Source: Sandaracinaceae bacterium (GTDB lineage: Bacteria > Myxococcota_A > Polyangia > Polyangiales > Sandaracinaceae). Taken from it: a stretch of DNA of 64,000 nucleotides. The notes beneath the pieces were generated by a model that was given only the letters and a program-made list of their open reading frames with translations, ran no database searches and was not told the DNA's origin. A program made the position numbers and the translations under genes. Location: contig JAVJQK010000033.1 in assembly GCA_040218145.1 (NCBI GenBank), positions 124,001 to 188,000 of the forward strand, written 5' to 3'. Shown here one piece after another: positions 31,364-38,227 of this stretch (positions within the stretch are counted from its first letter, which is position 1; each line of letters begins with the position of its first letter).

Positions 31364-32713
31364 TCACTCGGTCGCGCGTTCGAGCTCGCCGCGCACGACC
31401 GCGCGGACCGCGTCCGTGGCGTCCCGGCCCGTCGCGAGCGCCGACGCGACCTCGCTCGTGTCGAGCCCCGCCACCGCGCGGCCGTCCACCCAGATCCGCA
31501 GCGCGCGCGCGGGCCGATCCGCCACCGCCACCGCCCAGTGCCCGCGGTCGTAGATCAGCGTGTCGACGAAGGGGCGCGGCACCCGGGTCTCGCCCCCCGC
31601 CGTGATCACGAAGCGGCGGCCCCCGCGCCGCGCGAGGAAGGCGTGCCCGTCGGCGCCGAGCTGCAGCGCGCCCGCCCACTCCCCGCGATGCACCAGGGCC
31701 CCGTCGACCACCACCGCGGAGCCCGCGCCGCGTCGGTGACCCACGTAGCCCCAGCGCGCGCCGCGCGTCAGGGGGCCGTCCACCGAATCGAAGCGAGGCC
31801 CCGCCGACCCGCCCGGCCCGTGGACCCGCACTCCATCGTCCCGGCGGCACGCGAAGACGGGCGCGTTCGCCGGGGGCACGAGCGCGAGTCGCTCGATGGA
31901 AGGACAGCGCGCGGCCTCCCGGCCGTCCACGACGAGCGCGCCTCCCTGGCGCCACGCGACGGCGCCGCCGTCCGCCGCGATCACGAGGCCCTCCGCGCGC
32001 GGCGCCGCGTGTCGGCGGCTCCCGTGCACGACCGCGCGCCCCTCCGCCGTGTCCACGATCGCGGCCCACGTCGGCGCGTCGTCCGCCGCGGCCAGCTCCC
32101 GCAGGTCGTCGAAGCGTCCGGACACCTCCTCGTCCACGACGAGCGACGCGCCCTCCGCGTCGAACCCCGCGTAGACGACGAGCGCCCCCTTGGCCCCGAA
32201 CTCGAGGCCGAGCACGTCGTCGAACGCCGGCCCGACCCGACCGTCGACGACGGCGCGCGCGCCGCCTCCGTCCCGGCCGACGTAGGCGAGCCGGCGGCCC
32301 TCGCTCGCGAGAGTGATCGTGCCGGCGAGGATGGAGCGAAAGACGGGCCCGGCGTCTCCTCCGTCGACGACGCGCCAGCCCTCCTCGTCGAGCGCGGGAT
32401 AGGCGACGCGATCGCCGGCCACGGCGGGCACGCCGACCGCCTCGTAGGCGGGGCCGAGCGCGCGCCCGACGCCGACCCGCCAGCCCGCCTCGTCGCGCAC
32501 CGCGTAGACCGGCTCTCCGGACGCCGTCCACGCGAGCGCCTCGAGCCCCACCGCCTCCCACCGCCCGAGCACCTCACCGTCGAGCACCAGGCGCTGCACG
32601 TCGCCCACCTCCTCCACGCGCAGCTCGCGCGCGCGGTCCGGGCCCCGCCCGTGCCAGACGAGGGTCGGGGCGCAGCCCGAGAGGAGCAGGCAGGCGAGCG
32701 CGACGCAGATCAC
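31364..32713 (-). CDS. Lipoprotein with repeated VVDG-type strands (propeller-like)
   Basis: 449 residues. The N-terminus MICVALACLLLSGC is a compact lipoprotein signal with Cys14 as the acylation site. The rest consists of short repeats of the type Val-Val-Asp-Gly-x-x-x-Gly-Pro-x-Phe-Asp, about every 40-45 residues, as in WG or beta-propeller repeats. No enzyme motif is seen. GTG start at 32713 overlaps the dehydratase stop by four bases, so its product is made with the acyl-synthase enzymes. A cell-envelope acceptor or transport role is possible. Confidence 0.75.
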   Translation of the reverse strand: MICVALACLLLSGCAPTLVWHGRGPDRARELRVEEVGDVQRLVLDGEVLGRWEAVGLEALAWTASGEPVYAVRDEAGWRVGVGRALGPAYEAVGVPAVAGDRVAYPALDEEGWRVVDGGDAGPVFRSILAGTITLASEGRRLAYVGRDGGGARAVVDGRVGPAFDDVLGLEFGAKGALVVYAGFDAEGASLVVDEEVSGRFDDLRELAAADDAPTWAAIVDTAEGRAVVHGSRRHAAPRAEGLVIAADGGAVAWRQGGALVVDGREAARCPSIERLALVPPANAPVFACRRDDGVRVHGPGGSAGPRFDSVDGPLTRGARWGYVGHRRGAGSAVVVDGALVHRGEWAGALQLGADGHAFLARRGGRRFVITAGGETRVPRPFVDTLIYDRGHWAVAVADRPARALRIWVDGRAVAGLDTSEVASALATGRDATDAVRAVVRGELERATE

Positions 32714-33300
32714 GTTGGAAACGCGTCGGGGAGCGCGCTGGTGATCGCGCCGCGCGCGACGGGGCGCCCCTCCACCGTCGCCTCGACCTGGAACCGGCGC
32801 GCGCTGCCGAGGGCGCGCTCGAGGGTGACCCGATAGCGCAGCGTGCAGCCCGCGAAGACGGGCTCGGCGAGCTTCACGTCGATCGCGCCCGCGAGCCCCA
32901 CCCGCGCGGTGGGATCGGCGAGCTGCTCGACCAGCCCCGCCTCGATCTCCGAGGGCGCGCGCCGCCCGAGGCGGTGCCGGGCGTCGATGCCGCGGAGCGC
33001 GTCGAGCGCGTCGGCCTCCGTCAGCCCCCGCCGCTCGAAGCCCTCGACGATCGCGAGCAGCACGAGCAGCGCGTTGACGGCCTGCCCCATGCCCTCCACC
33101 GTGTAGACCCCGGGCCAGAGGCTCAGGCCGGGGAAGTGCCCCTCGAACACGGGCTCGTTGGCGGAGACCTGCTTGTGCCCCTCGAGCGTCGGCTTGGGGC
33201 CGCGCACGAAGCTGTCCACGCCGTCGAGGAAGAGGAACGGACGCCGGTGCGGGATGAGCCGCATCACCGTGTCGGCGCCGAGCTCGAGCCGCCGCGTCAC
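32710..33300 (-). CDS. Hotdog 3-hydroxyacyl-ACP dehydratase (FabZ/FabA-like) with insertion
   Basis: 196 residues. Pro-His-Arg-Arg-Pro-Phe-Leu-Phe-Leu-Asp opens the domain, Gly-His-Phe-Pro-Gly gives catalytic His55, and Val-Glu-Gly-Met-Gly-Gln-Ala gives Glu69. Compared with FabZ (about 145 residues), roughly 45 extra residues (about 87-135, Arg/Glu/Ala-rich) are inserted after the central helix. It would dehydrate 3-hydroxyacyl-ACP made by the ketoreductase upstream. GTG start at 33300 overlaps the ketoreductase stop by four bases. Confidence 0.85.
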   Translation of the reverse strand: MTRRLELGADTVMRLIPHRRPFLFLDGVDSFVRGPKPTLEGHKQVSANEPVFEGHFPGLSLWPGVYTVEGMGQAVNALLVLLAIVEGFERRGLTEADALDALRGIDARHRLGRRAPSEIEAGLVEQLADPTARVGLAGAIDVKLAEPVFAGCTLRYRVTLERALGSARRFQVEATVEGRPVARGAITSALPDAFPT

Positions 33301-34031
33301 GAAGAGAGCCCTCCGTCGACCACGAGGCTCTGCCCGGTGACGTAGCTCGCGTCGTCCGAGGCGAGGAAAGCCACCGCCGACGCGAGCTCCTCCGCCGCAC
33401 CCGGCCGACCGAGCGGGATGCGCTCGACCATGGCCGCCTTGCGATCCGCCGGCAGCCGCGCGGCCATGCCCGCGTCGAAGAGGCCGGGCACCACGGCGTT
33501 GACCCGCACGCCCTTGCCCCCGACCTCGGCCGCGAGGGTCTTGACGAGCGCCAGCACCGCGCCCTTGGACGCCGCGTAGTTCGCCTGGCCCGGGCTCGCG
33601 CGCAGGCCCGCCACCGAGCCCACGGCGACGACGCTCCCGCGCCCCGCCGCGATCATCGGCCGCAGCACGGCCCGCACGCACCGCATCGTCCCGTCGACGT
33701 TGGTCCGCAAGACGTCTCCCCACGCGTCGTCGCTCATCATCGCCAGGAACCCGTCGTGGTGCACGGCGGCCGCGCAGACCAGCACGTCGACCCGGCGATG
33801 GCGCGCGAGGACCCCGCGGAACGCCGCGTCCACCGAGGGCTGCTCGCGCACGTCGAGCTGCAGCGGCGTGGCGTTCGCCCCGCAGGTCGCGACCACGCGC
33901 TGCGCGTCCTCTTCCCGGCGTCGGTAGCCGACGTGCACGGAGGCGCCCTCGGCCGCGAGGCGCGCGCAGATGGCCGCCCCGAGCCCCCGCGAGCCGCCCG
34001 TGACCACGGCGACGCGGCCCTCGAGCCTCAC
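33297..34031 (-). CDS. 3-oxoacyl-ACP reductase (FabG-like SDR)
   Basis: 244 residues, classical short-chain dehydrogenase. The NADP-binding Thr-Gly-Gly-Ser-Arg-Gly-Leu-Gly is at 11-18, Asn111 is present, and the catalytic Ser139, Tyr152 and Lys156 are all in place (Tyr-Ala-Ala-Ser-Lys). The C-terminus Tyr-Val-Thr-Gly-Gln-Ser-Leu-Val-Val-Asp-Gly-Gly is typical of FabG. Its place between a GcvT-like gene and a dehydratase in an operon with KS and ACP supports beta-keto reduction on ACP. GTG start at 34031 overlaps the previous stop. Confidence 0.9.
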   Translation of the reverse strand: MRLEGRVAVVTGGSRGLGAAICARLAAEGASVHVGYRRREEDAQRVVATCGANATPLQLDVREQPSVDAAFRGVLARHRRVDVLVCAAAVHHDGFLAMMSDDAWGDVLRTNVDGTMRCVRAVLRPMIAAGRGSVVAVGSVAGLRASPGQANYAASKGAVLALVKTLAAEVGGKGVRVNAVVPGLFDAGMAARLPADRKAAMVERIPLGRPGAAEELASAVAFLASDDASYVTGQSLVVDGGLSS

Positions 34032-35053
34032 GCCCGCGCTCCGAACCGCGAGAGCGGAGGGAAGGCGATCTCGTCGCGCGTGGCGAACACGTGGCGGCGC
34101 GGGTCCACGTGCAGGCTCCGGTTCTCCACGAGCGGAGGCGCGACGACGCGGGCGCCCTCGTCGAGCACCACGCCGCCGTGCGCGATCTCCACGTCGATCA
34201 GCGCGCTGGCGACCTCCATGTCGATCGACTCGGAGCGCGCGCGGCGCACCACCTCGCCCACCGCCTGCCCGTTCAGGTGCAGCGTGCCCTCGAGCGGGGT
34301 CTCGGCGCGGACGTACATCAGCCGCCGCCGGACGCCGTCTGCGAGCCGCGCCTCGATCGCCGCCTTGCCCACCCAGTCGCGCTCGAGGTCGAGCCGCCAG
34401 CCGAGCTGCAGCTCGAGCGGCGTGACCCCGACCGGCACGTGCGCCGGGTCGAAGAACCCGTTCTCGAAGCGACACAGCGAGACCGCCTCGAGGGACACCG
34501 CCTCGCCGTCGAGGGCTTCGCCGTGGCGCTCGATGTCCGCCATCAGCGCGTCGGCCGCGTCGCGCTCCACCACGAGGTCGTAGCCGAACTCGCCGGTCTT
34601 GCCCGCGCGGACGCACAGGCCGTGGTCGACGCGGAAGAAGTTGAGGTAGGGGAGCGCCATCATGTCGTCCCCGAGCACCTTCGAGACGTGCTCCCAGGCC
34701 CAAGGGCCGTGCACCGACACGACGACGTGCGTCTCGCCCAAGTCTTCGAGCGTGGGCGCGCAGCCCGGCGGCAGGTGCGCCTCCACGTGCGCGCGCAGCG
34801 CCGCGGGAGAGAGGCCCTCGACCAGCAGCAGGTAGTCCTCGTCGTCCGCGCACACGAGCACGTCCGCGATCGGCCGCCCCGCGTCATCGAGCAAGAGCGA
34901 TTCCTTGACCTGCGCGTCCCGGAGGAACAGGCGCGAGGGGCAGAGGTGCAGGAGCGCGTCCCGCGCGTCTTCGCCCCGCAGGGCGAGCAGCGCGAGCTCG
35001 GGCGCGCGGCGCCACCCCACCGCCTCGCGGATCGCGGTCACGTCCGGGCTCAT
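34028..35053 (-). CDS. GcvT-fold (aminomethyltransferase-like) protein in an acyl-synthase operon
   Basis: 341 residues. The GCV_T architecture is visible: an N-terminal half with Ser-Leu-Leu-Leu-Asp-Asp-Ala-Gly-Arg-Pro-Ile-Ala-Asp-Val, a central Thr-Gly-Glu-Phe-Gly-Tyr-Asp segment, and Leu-Gly-Trp-Arg-Leu-Asp-Leu-Glu-Arg-Asp-Trp-Val-Gly-Lys, which aligns with the folate-site region of GcvT. A C-terminal barrel follows. The YgfZ Lys-Gly-Cys-Tyr motif is absent, and gcvH and gcvP are not present, so glycine cleavage is unlikely. It overlaps the ACP stop and the FabG start by four bases on each side. A folate-dependent C1 step or a non-catalytic role in acyl-chain modification is inference. Confidence 0.75.
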   Translation of the reverse strand: MSPDVTAIREAVGWRRAPELALLALRGEDARDALLHLCPSRLFLRDAQVKESLLLDDAGRPIADVLVCADDEDYLLLVEGLSPAALRAHVEAHLPPGCAPTLEDLGETHVVVSVHGPWAWEHVSKVLGDDMMALPYLNFFRVDHGLCVRAGKTGEFGYDLVVERDAADALMADIERHGEALDGEAVSLEAVSLCRFENGFFDPAHVPVGVTPLELQLGWRLDLERDWVGKAAIEARLADGVRRRLMYVRAETPLEGTLHLNGQAVGEVVRRARSESIDMEVASALIDVEIAHGGVVLDEGARVVAPPLVENRSLHVDPRRHVFATRDEIAFPPLSRFGARA

Positions 35054-35394
35054 CCCGCCTCCGCTTCTTCGATGGGCGAGTCGCTGGGCTCCACCCGGGT
35101 GATCCCCTCGGGCGGGTCCAGCACGAGCTCCACCACGGAGTGCACGGTGCGGAACGCCGACGGCCCCACCGCGCCCTCCGAGAACTGCAGCGAGAACTCC
35201 GCCTCGATGGCCACGACCAGCTCGACCGCGTCGACGGAGTCGAGCGCGAGGCCGGTGCCGAAGAGCGGCGCGTCGAGGTCGATGCGCTCGGGAGGCAGGG
35301 GCACGCGCAGCCGCTCCACCAGCATGTGCCGGACCCGGGTCAGCGCCTCCTCGCGTCGGGCGAGGTGCGCGCGCAAGCTGTCGTCCATCTCCAT
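35050..35394 (-). CDS. Acyl carrier protein
   Basis: 114 residues. Leu-Asp-Ser-Val-Asp-Ala-Val-Glu-Leu holds Ser53 as the phosphopantetheine site, between helices typical of ACP (Ile-Glu-Ala-Glu-Phe-Ser-Leu after it). A 25-residue acidic tail extends beyond the core. ATG at 35394 shares its first base with the ketosynthase stop (TGATG); a GTG three bases earlier is equally possible. It carries the chain for the fused ketosynthase, reductase and dehydratase in this operon. Confidence 0.88.
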   Translation of the reverse strand: MEMDDSLRAHLARREEALTRVRHMLVERLRVPLPPERIDLDAPLFGTGLALDSVDAVELVVAIEAEFSLQFSEGAVGPSAFRTVHSVVELVLDPPEGITRVEPSDSPIEEAEAG

Positions 35395-37256
35395 CACACG
35401 GACACCAGTACCACCGCGCAGCTGGCGTGGGGGGACGAACCGACGATCAAGCGAGCGCGTCCGGGCGGGAGCGAGGCGGCGAGCAGGGGCGCGAGGCTCT
35501 CCACGCAGCCGTCTGGCGCGACGACCGTCTCGACCGGCTCGGACAGCTCGGCCATGGCGAGCGCGCGCGCCGCGGTGTCGGTCGCGTCGTCGGGCCCGCC
35601 GAAGGCGACGCCCGCCACGCGCTGGCTCGCGGGTCCGCGGGGCTCGGGCTCGAGCACGAGCGCGCTCGCGCCTTCGGCCTCGTCGTCGGCCCCGCGCTCC
35701 CGCCACCCGCAGGCCACCATCACGTCCGCGTCCCGCCGCCGCGCGAGGTGGTCGGACGCGTAGGCGAAGGCGAGGAGCCCGCCGAGCCCCGGATCGCAGA
35801 GGGTGGTGGTCGGGCCGCGGAGGGCCAGCAGGCGGGAGACGGCGCCGCCCGGGGCGTGCAGCACCAGCCGGGCGAACGCTGGCGCGCTCGCCCGGGCCAG
35901 TCCGCCGCGCTCCACGCTCTCGCGAAACCGCTCCGCGGACTCCGGCGACACGAAGGCGGCGCCGCAGAAGATCCCCGCGCGCTCGCGCAGCGCGCCGCGG
36001 ATCCGGACCCCGGCGTCTTCGAGCGCGGCGCGCGTGGCGGCGAGCGCGAGGCGGGTCGCCGGATCGCTCTGGCGGAGATCGACGTCCGCCTCGAGCGCGG
36101 ACTCGTCGCGGGGCGCGCCGGCGCCGAAGCCGACGTGCGCGCGCCCGGTCAGGTAGATCGGTCGCGAGGGCGTGTCCGCCGCGCGAGGCTCGGGCCCGAA
36201 CGCGAGCACGGCGTTGGCGCCGCCGAAGGCCGAGCTGCTCGCGAGCGCGTGACGCACGGCGTGCGGCCGGGGTCGCTCGCCGCGGACGGGATCGGCGGGC
36301 CCGCCCGGGCGCCCGCCGCCCACGCGCAGGGTCGGCGGCACGGCGCCCTCGCGCATGCAGACGAGCGAGGCGAAGAGCTCCAGCACCCCGGCCGCGCCCT
36401 GGGCGTGCCCGAGCTGCGACTTGCTCCCGCTGATCGGCACGGCGTCGACGCGCGCGCCCAGCGCGGCCCGCAGCCCTCGGTGCTCCGCGTCGTCGTTCGC
36501 CGCGGTGCCGGTGGCGTGCGCGCTGACGTGGTCGATGTCGCCCGCGTCGAGCGCCGCGTCGGAGAGGGCGCCCCGGACCGCGCGCGCGATGCCGGCCCCG
36601 CGCGGCTCGGGGGAGGTCTCGTGCCAGGCGTCGCTCGCGAGCCCGTAGCCATGGATGCGCGCACGCGCCCCTTCGCGCTCCCGTTCGAGCACGACGAAGC
36701 CGGCCCCCTCGCCGAGCGTGGTCCCGCGCGTGTCGCCGAAGGGCGCGCAGGGAGCCTCAGCGAGCACGCCCAGCCGATGAAAGCCGGCGTACATCTCGGC
36801 GAAGAGCCGCTCGGCGCCGCCCGCGACCACCACGTCGGCGTCTCCTCGCGCGAGCAGATCGCGTCCGAGCCCGATGGCGTTCGCGCTCGACGTGCACGCG
36901 GTCGAGACCGTGAGCCGGGGCCCCTCCGCGCCGAGCGCCTCCGCGACGACGCGCGCCACGCCGACGATGTCGTGCGCCTCACCCTCGGTCGTGCCGGCCA
37001 CGACGGCGAGGCGGCGCGGCGAGACGGCCGGGCGGCCCGCGTCCTCCCACGCCTCGCGGGCCGCGGCGAGAGCCCAGTCGAAGCACGTGCCCGGCGCCTC
37101 GACGCAGCCGCCGAGGTGCACTGGAGCAAAAGGCGTGACATCGAAGCGGGTGACAGGCCGGATGCCGTGCCGTCCCGCGAAGATGGCGGCGCGCAGGGCC
37201 GGGACGCCCACGCCGAGCGCGCTCACCGCGCCGAGGCCGGTGACGACGACGCTCAC
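35394..37256 (-). CDS. Ketosynthase fused to a truncated, inactive ketosynthase half
   Basis: 620 residues. Residues 1-357 are a full beta-ketoacyl-ACP synthase with nucleophile Cys121 (Ser-Thr-Ala-Cys-Thr-Ser-Ser), His-Ala-Thr-Gly-Thr and Gly-His-Ala-Gln-Gly-Ala-Ala-Gly, so the Cys-His-His triad is intact. Residues about 365-620 resemble only the first thiolase half of another KS, and Gly stands where the catalytic Cys should be (Leu-Cys-Asp-Pro-Gly-Leu-Gly-Gly). It looks like a short chain-length-factor partner fused in cis; stand-alone short KS partners are known from aryl-polyene-type clusters. GTG start at 37256 overlaps the upstream stop by four bases. Confidence 0.88.
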   Translation of the reverse strand: MSVVVTGLGAVSALGVGVPALRAAIFAGRHGIRPVTRFDVTPFAPVHLGGCVEAPGTCFDWALAAAREAWEDAGRPAVSPRRLAVVAGTTEGEAHDIVGVARVVAEALGAEGPRLTVSTACTSSANAIGLGRDLLARGDADVVVAGGAERLFAEMYAGFHRLGVLAEAPCAPFGDTRGTTLGEGAGFVVLEREREGARARIHGYGLASDAWHETSPEPRGAGIARAVRGALSDAALDAGDIDHVSAHATGTAANDDAEHRGLRAALGARVDAVPISGSKSQLGHAQGAAGVLELFASLVCMREGAVPPTLRVGGGRPGGPADPVRGERPRPHAVRHALASSSAFGGANAVLAFGPEPRAADTPSRPIYLTGRAHVGFGAGAPRDESALEADVDLRQSDPATRLALAATRAALEDAGVRIRGALRERAGIFCGAAFVSPESAERFRESVERGGLARASAPAFARLVLHAPGGAVSRLLALRGPTTTLCDPGLGGLLAFAYASDHLARRRDADVMVACGWRERGADDEAEGASALVLEPEPRGPASQRVAGVAFGGPDDATDTAARALAMAELSEPVETVVAPDGCVESLAPLLAASLPPGRARLIVGSSPHASCAVVLVSV

Positions 37257-38227
37257 GCGTTCTGCGCCAGCCCCACGATGAGCACGATGAGCCCGACGAT
37301 GACCAGCGTGCCGCCCGGCGTCGCGCCGACGAGCGCCCCGATCGCCGCGCTCTCGGTCGCGATGCCGACGGCGAGCGTGAGGATCCCGAACACGACGACC
37401 CCCGAGCCCATCATCACGGCGCCCACCGCGATCTCGGGATCGCCAGGCCCGCCTACCTCTTCGACGGTGAGCGGCGCCTCGGACTCGGGCGGCGGGGGCG
37501 GAGTCGCGCCGCGCGGCTCACCGCTGGGGGCGTCCAGCCCGCGTCCCCCCGCGCTCGGCGGCACGCCGTCGCCCTCGAGGGCCTGCCACACCGACGCGAG
37601 CATCGCGCTCGCCGTCGCCTCCCGCGCGAAGGCGACGGGGCCGCCCTTCTGCGCGACGATCCGCTCGACCTTGCCCACCGTGTCGTCGATGACCGCGCCC
37701 ATCGACTGACGACGCGTCTTGGTCGCGACCTGGTGCGCCAGCTGCCGGAGCTTGACCCGGCTCGCGCGGTCGATCCCGGTCGCCTGCGCGTCGATCCACT
37801 CGGCCACCTGCATCGCCGCGTCCGGGCGCTCGCGGGTGGCTCGCTCCACGGACCTCCGCGCGCCCATCGGCATCCCGCCGAGGAGCGCGCCGAACTGGGC
37901 CACGCACTCGTCGAGGACGGGCAGCGCGTCGGCGAGCGCGCCCGCGAGCGGCCCGGGCAGCTCCGCGTCGCGGGGGATCGAGCGCGCGACGTCCGCCACG
38001 ACGAGCGCCTCGAGCCCGAGCCGGGTCATGCGGTCGAGGTGCGGATCGGTCGCGTCTCCGTAGAGGCTCGGCCCGGTGCGCACGCGCTGGCGGCCTCGCT
38101 CGAGCCGGTCGAGGAGCGAGGACGCGTCGGCCTGACTCAGCGGCACGCGGGCGCCGCCGCAGCCCCCCACCGTCATCCCCGCGAGCACTCCCAGGGTCGT
38201 TCCCGCGACGAACTCTCGGCGTTGCAT
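37253..38227 (-). CDS. Tat-type lipoprotein with C-terminal membrane segments
   Basis: 324 residues. The N-terminus has Arg-Arg-Glu-Phe-Val followed by a hydrophobic stretch and Val-Gly-Gly-Cys, a twin-arginine-like signal with lipobox. The middle 180 residues are helical. A Pro/Glu-rich linker (about 230-255) is followed by two very hydrophobic Gly/Val/Ile segments near the C-terminus (about 262-290 and 297-320). It is the first gene of the coupled operon with the ketosynthase. A membrane scaffold or export accessory role is inferred only from location; no family is recognised. Confidence 0.7.
   Translation of the reverse strand: MQRREFVAGTTLGVLAGMTVGGCGGARVPLSQADASSLLDRLERGRQRVRTGPSLYGDATDPHLDRMTRLGLEALVVADVARSIPRDAELPGPLAGALADALPVLDECVAQFGALLGGMPMGARRSVERATRERPDAAMQVAEWIDAQATGIDRASRVKLRQLAHQVATKTRRQSMGAVIDDTVGKVERIVAQKGGPVAFAREATASAMLASVWQALEGDGVPPSAGGRGLDAPSGEPRGATPPPPPESEAPLTVEEVGGPGDPEIAVGAVMMGSGVVVFGILTLAVGIATESAAIGALVGATPGGTLVIVGLIVLIVGLAQNA

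Follow-up and report, generated by a model that had tools for sequence, protein, structure and literature searches.

A single-chain ketosynthase with a half-size chain-length-factor-like domain as probable condensing enzyme of a cyl-like operon in Myxococcota

What is the role of a ketosynthase that carries, in the same chain, a second ketosynthase of half size in which the catalytic cysteine is missing? This question is raised by a gene located in the window, as we call the whole stretch of 64,000 nucleotides of Sandaracinaceae bacterium DNA that was analysed. According to its sequence this is one intact gene, in which a putatively active FabF-type ketosynthase (KS) is followed in frame by a KS relative of about 256 aa. 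Its parts are the following, the second half being named after the chain-length factors (CLFs) with which it is compared below:

35394-37256, minus strand: fused KS-CLF gene, a single ORF of 620 aa that starts with GTG and is free of internal stops
36186..37256, minus strand: KS half, residues 1-357, catalytically complete by motif (PF00109 and PF02801; C121, H247, H284)
36894..36896, minus strand: codon of the catalytic Cys121, in an STACTSS motif
36165..36185, minus strand: short linker, residues 358-364, between the halves in the structure model and in frame in all homologues
35394..36164, minus strand: half-size CLF-like half, residues 365-620 plus stop (PF00109, E 3e-8; structure model; Foldseek)
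35787..35789, minus strand: Gly490 codon, aligned with the catalytic Cys; no family member has Cys in this column

The N-terminal half matches both halves of the KS domain in Pfam, and Cys121, His247 and His284 are invariant across 22 homologues, in agreement with an earlier sequence-only reading that had described a full first KS with this cysteine and both histidines. When compared to FabF structures with VIA-align, 352-356 residues of this half were aligned with a Z of about 56 and an rmsd of 1.5. As for the C-terminal part, it matches PF00109 when searched alone, and no KS C-terminal domain of Pfam was matched by residues 365-620. PF00109 was matched by 20 out of 20 family members of this part, and none of the 20 matched any other Pfam KS family at E<=1. 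The column of the catalytic Cys, in which that reading had seen a Gly, is indeed occupied by Gly490 in the window and by other residues in the homologues, with Cys in 0 of 22. The same reading held that the C-terminal part aligns with the first KS half only, and this is true of the Pfam match but not of the profile and the structure model, which show that parts of the second thiolase half persist (strands 545-553, 576-579, 601-607 and 612-619, and helix 558-568). In the predicted structure, the first thiolase half is kept and the second one is reduced to some strands and one helix. The C-part profile also matches full-size CLFs (6smo_C, 6kxd_B and 1tqy_B).

The AlphaFold model of the whole chain, built on a shallow alignment of 22 homologue rows, has a pLDDT of 89.9 and a pTM of 0.94 and packs both halves together, with the inactive half placed against the active KS as in a heterodimer, which is the one-chain arrangement that the sequence-only reading had named as support. 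The best whole-chain PDB match in Foldseek is 6riw, the KS-CLF didomain of PfaC (TMq 0.79), and the listed single KS chains reach a TM of at most 0.55, which argues that both halves superpose jointly; the whole-chain VIA-align rows span residues 1-360 only, and the evidence for two jointly packed domains comes from Foldseek and the pTM. Modelled alone (pLDDT 90.5), the C-part aligns with the KS fold over 253-255 residues (Z about 26, rmsd 2.3-2.6), and its top Foldseek match is the ishigamide CLF 6kxf_B. By prediction the protein is therefore a one-chain pseudo-dimer with a KS/CLF interface, and the joint packing in the model, together with the PfaC didomain as best match, suggests that the second half is a CLF in cis, reduced like ApeC.

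The fusion belongs to an operon of seven genes, all on the minus strand and with successive overlaps of 1-4 nt, in the order exported protein, KS-CLF, ACP, GcvT-like protein, SDR ketoreductase, FabZ-like dehydratase and lipoprotein. Besides the KS-CLF gene, it contains:

37253..38227, minus strand: first gene, probable exported protein of a family without name (Tat/lipobox-like start, C-terminal hydrophobic stretches)
35050..35394, minus strand: ACP of 114 aa with a DSVD attachment motif (PF00550)
34028..35053, minus strand: GcvT-like (CylF-like) protein with a folate-binding domain (PF01571, E 9e-25)
33297..34031, minus strand: ketoreductase (KR), FabG/CylG-like SDR (TIGR01830, E 2e-70, with 237 bits, under the NCBIfam cut-off of 298; S-Y-K motif visible)
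32710..33300, minus strand: dehydratase (DH), FabZ/CylZ-like hot-dog protein (PF07977 and FabZ models; His of GHFPG and a downstream Glu)
31364..32713, minus strand: last conserved gene, probable lipoprotein of a family without name, homologues of which close the operon in 12 loci

The KS-CLF gene overlaps the exported-protein gene by 4 nt, and its stop shares one base with the ACP start. The two families that flank the operon (37253-38227 and 31364-32713) lack a Pfam assignment and are conserved along with it. The exported protein had no Pfam match; a homologue of it is encoded close to the fusion in 16 of 21 loci, with further ones outside the order; the lipoprotein homologue of locus L068 gave a weak beta-propeller signal (PD40, E 4e-5). 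No enoyl reductase gene was found among the operon genes, nor a second KS or an aryl-starter ligase in the conserved operon by Pfam and by inspection of the relatives' loci. In several relatives (including L068, L073, L074 and L076) an acyltransferase gene sits between SDR and FabZ, and it is absent from the window (32710-34031) and from L063-L066, with no room left between these two genes. As the KS sequences of these five loci form one group in the KS tree (support 98), the missing acyltransferase is consistent with a single loss. Since the operon lacks the malonyl transferase that most of its relatives encode, the ACP is expected to be charged by the housekeeping FabD in the organism of the window.

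The fused layout, in frame, without stops and never with Cys in the C-part, is present in 24 of the 183 genomes of the order. Fusions of full length are common in Myxococcota: searching the whole phylum gave more than 30 full-length fused matches, some of them with other neighbours. The aligned homologues are 35-60% identical, except for the sister assembly, and a search of genome contigs gave a near-identical Sandaracinaceae MAG as its sole match. The operon order is conserved in relatives of the order Polyangiales and partly in other Myxococcota, and KS-CLF genes accompanied by ACP and GcvT are also found outside the order within the phylum. Fused KS-CLF genes were moreover found in Streptomyces, Priestia and Vibrio, by tblastn on plasmids, and in Enterobacter, reached through the GcvT search, and their two-part layout was checked with profiles. 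With PfaC as a further case, and contrary to the expectation of the sequence-only reading that a cis fusion would be unusual, KS-CLF fusion as such is known and not rare. The Priestia and Enterobacter proteins are 24-38% identical to those of the window operon, and the second half of their fusions has about 390-440 aa, in comparison with which the myxobacterial fusion looks like a reduced form. In the KS tree, from which ApeO and ApeC are absent, one branch (98) unites the GcvT-linked fusions of myxobacteria with two others, nearly all fusions are separate from FabF with moderate support, and those of Enterobacter and Priestia do not group with the myxobacterial ones.

These searches also revealed other clusters. 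Enterobacter and Rahnella plasmids (L118:1201-18963 and L119:2611-19044) carry a GcvT-ACP-KR-DH cluster, with the fused KS-CLF annotated in Enterobacter, and this cluster adjoins filamentous-hemagglutinin-like and ShlB/FhaC-type genes and an ABC transporter. In loci L103 and L111, two fused double-KS genes that belong to another type follow each other directly, the upstream one having a divergent KS half. In a Vibrio coralliilyticus plasmid (L117:5578-7782), a fused KS-CLF of 734 aa is clustered with a phenylalanine aminomutase, in what is presumably an andrimid-type cluster.

Taken together, we consider it most likely that the single-chain KS-CLF performs the condensations in a cyl-like (granadaene-type) operon devoted to iterative synthesis of a conjugated polyene. 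In this scheme the N-terminal KS would carry out decarboxylative condensations on ACP-bound chains, and the dead half-size C-domain would stand in for the partner subunit of a KS dimer, contributing to the closure and shape of the substrate tunnel and, by a role that we infer from CLFs, fixing chain length. After each elongation by the KS-CLF, the SDR would reduce and the FabZ-like enzyme dehydrate, and as the operon has KR and DH but no enoyl reductase, the ACP would end carrying a conjugated polyene acyl chain. The GcvT-like protein probably acts on this ACP-bound chain. One Asp of its folate site is invariant in the myxobacterial alignment rows, and GcvT-like homologues are located near the fused KS-CLF in Enterobacter and Priestia. 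In two loci (L070:8464-9768 and L081:5898-7202), one 434-aa ORF encodes both the ACP and the GcvT-like protein, and elsewhere the two genes adjoin wherever both are present. It has been proposed that CylF generates ammonia for ornithine (PMC6985545), and the ACP-GcvT fusions point instead to the ACP-bound chain as the substrate of CylF-type enzymes.

Other explanations have to be weighed against this one. That two genes were wrongly joined, or that the second half is an unrelated domain, seems extremely improbable: the only in-frame GTG close to the junction is codon 350, but the homologues show neither stop nor frameshift there and the second half has the KS fold in the model, so that both readings are refuted at the level of sequence and predicted fold. 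Chance or a frameshift is likewise excluded by the in-frame layout in the 24 genomes and by the excess of synonymous over non-synonymous codon changes, 29 to 8 in the whole gene, when the window is compared with the sister assembly L009. The C-half could instead be a second KS in decay that serves structure or stability and has no part in setting chain length, as might be expected from its few invariant residues and its lower mean column identity in the family alignment (44% vs 51% for the KS half). However, it has been retained across distant genomes, it shows 10 synonymous vs 3 non-synonymous codon changes with respect to L009, and it is packed in the model like a CLF, and we regard this possibility as unlikely.

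The remaining alternatives keep a working partner for the KS and change the pathway. The protein could be the condensing enzyme of an aryl polyene cluster, with ApeO and ApeC fused in cis, and the sequence-only reading had compared the second half to the short KS partners of polyene-type clusters. None of the C-part members (0/20) matched the Pfam family specific to the ApeC type, which we take to be PF13723, all of them being PF00109 proteins as described above, and membership in this class was dropped for this reason. The resemblance in size holds, as ApeC is about half the size of its KS and keeps the first thiolase half while the second is almost lost (PMC8358021), and aryl polyene clusters have KR, DH and ACP in common with the window operon. 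The neighbours, however, match the cyl/granadaene core and not that of aryl polyenes, with a GcvT-like protein present and neither a second KS nor an aryl-starter ligase, which makes this origin quite improbable. The protein could also be a KS-cyclization factor of the AmcF-AmcG type (cispentacin/coronafacic acid), performing one elongation and a ring closure. The NCBIfam AmcF model spans the entire N-part in one stretch (E 2e-51), two relatives of the C-part touch the AmcG model (best E 0.001), and AmcG also lacks functional motifs and some CLF secondary structures (PMC10698177). But the AmcF score is 175 bits against a cut-off of 325, the C-part of the window does not match AmcG at E<=1, and the operon has an SDR ketoreductase and no visible starter ligase of the AmcH type. 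As the NCBIfam cut-offs were not reached, membership in this class was dropped too, and we find the reading very improbable.

With its CLF of 256 aa, the single-chain protein is the smallest KS-CLF among those compared here. The fusion fixes the 1:1 pairing of KS and CLF genetically, and it could be a handy model for the control of chain length by CLFs. Fused genes could escape pipelines that search for a KS gene next to a CLF gene (e.g., PMC10132072). A literature search found no paper on KS-CLF fusion, on the combination of GcvT with a ketosynthase or on PDB entries 9s5h/9s5i, and none on point for cyl-like operons in Gram-negatives.

Several known systems share features with the window protein. 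PfaC, from polyunsaturated fatty acid synthases (6riw), also joins KS and CLF in a single chain, but it is part of a multidomain synthase and its CLF is full-size, whereas the window protein is a stand-alone product of 620 aa whose CLF is half-size and whose operon encodes ACP, KR and DH as separate proteins, and it is not assigned to the PfaC synthases for this reason. In ApeO-ApeC (6QSP) the CLF is half-size, with one thiolase domain mostly kept as in our C-part, but ApeC is a separate subunit and its cluster has other contents, and in AmcF-AmcG the KS also has a reduced partner without motifs, again as separate subunits. The plasmid clusters of Priestia megaterium and Enterobacter bugandensis are like the window in having the fusion near GcvT-like, ACP, FabZ and FabG-like genes. 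In gene content the window operon resembles cyl operons. Their product, granadaene, is a polyene known as the orange pigment of group B streptococci. The cyl core comprises ACP, CylD, CylG, CylZ, CylF and CylH/I and makes this polyene of twelve alkenes; CylE has been reported as universal in cyl operons, which are recorded from Gram-positive phyla plus one Chloroflexi genus (PMC6985545). By domain content, the window operon holds together the ACP, KR, DH, GcvT-like CylF and KS set of Streptococcus agalactiae and relatives, and several of its relatives also have the acyltransferase of the cyl core; the comparison is made through domains and the published gene content of the S. agalactiae operon. 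In the conserved operon no CylE was recognised by domain searches that had no CylE profile, and no ABC genes corresponding to the CylA/B exporter are among its members, for which reason we refrain from calling it a granadaene operon. It further differs in its two extra exported or lipoprotein genes and in its host, a Gram-negative myxobacterium, to whose phylum it would extend the granadaene-type core. Through the ACP-GcvT fusions, the part played by CylF becomes open to direct testing. It is possible, and we propose it tentatively, that Myxococcota have a Gram-negative, CylE-less branch of the granadaene type in which a minimal single-chain KS-CLF produces a new membrane polyene, with CylF-type folate chemistry taking place on the ACP-bound chain and not serving the supply of ammonia for ornithine.
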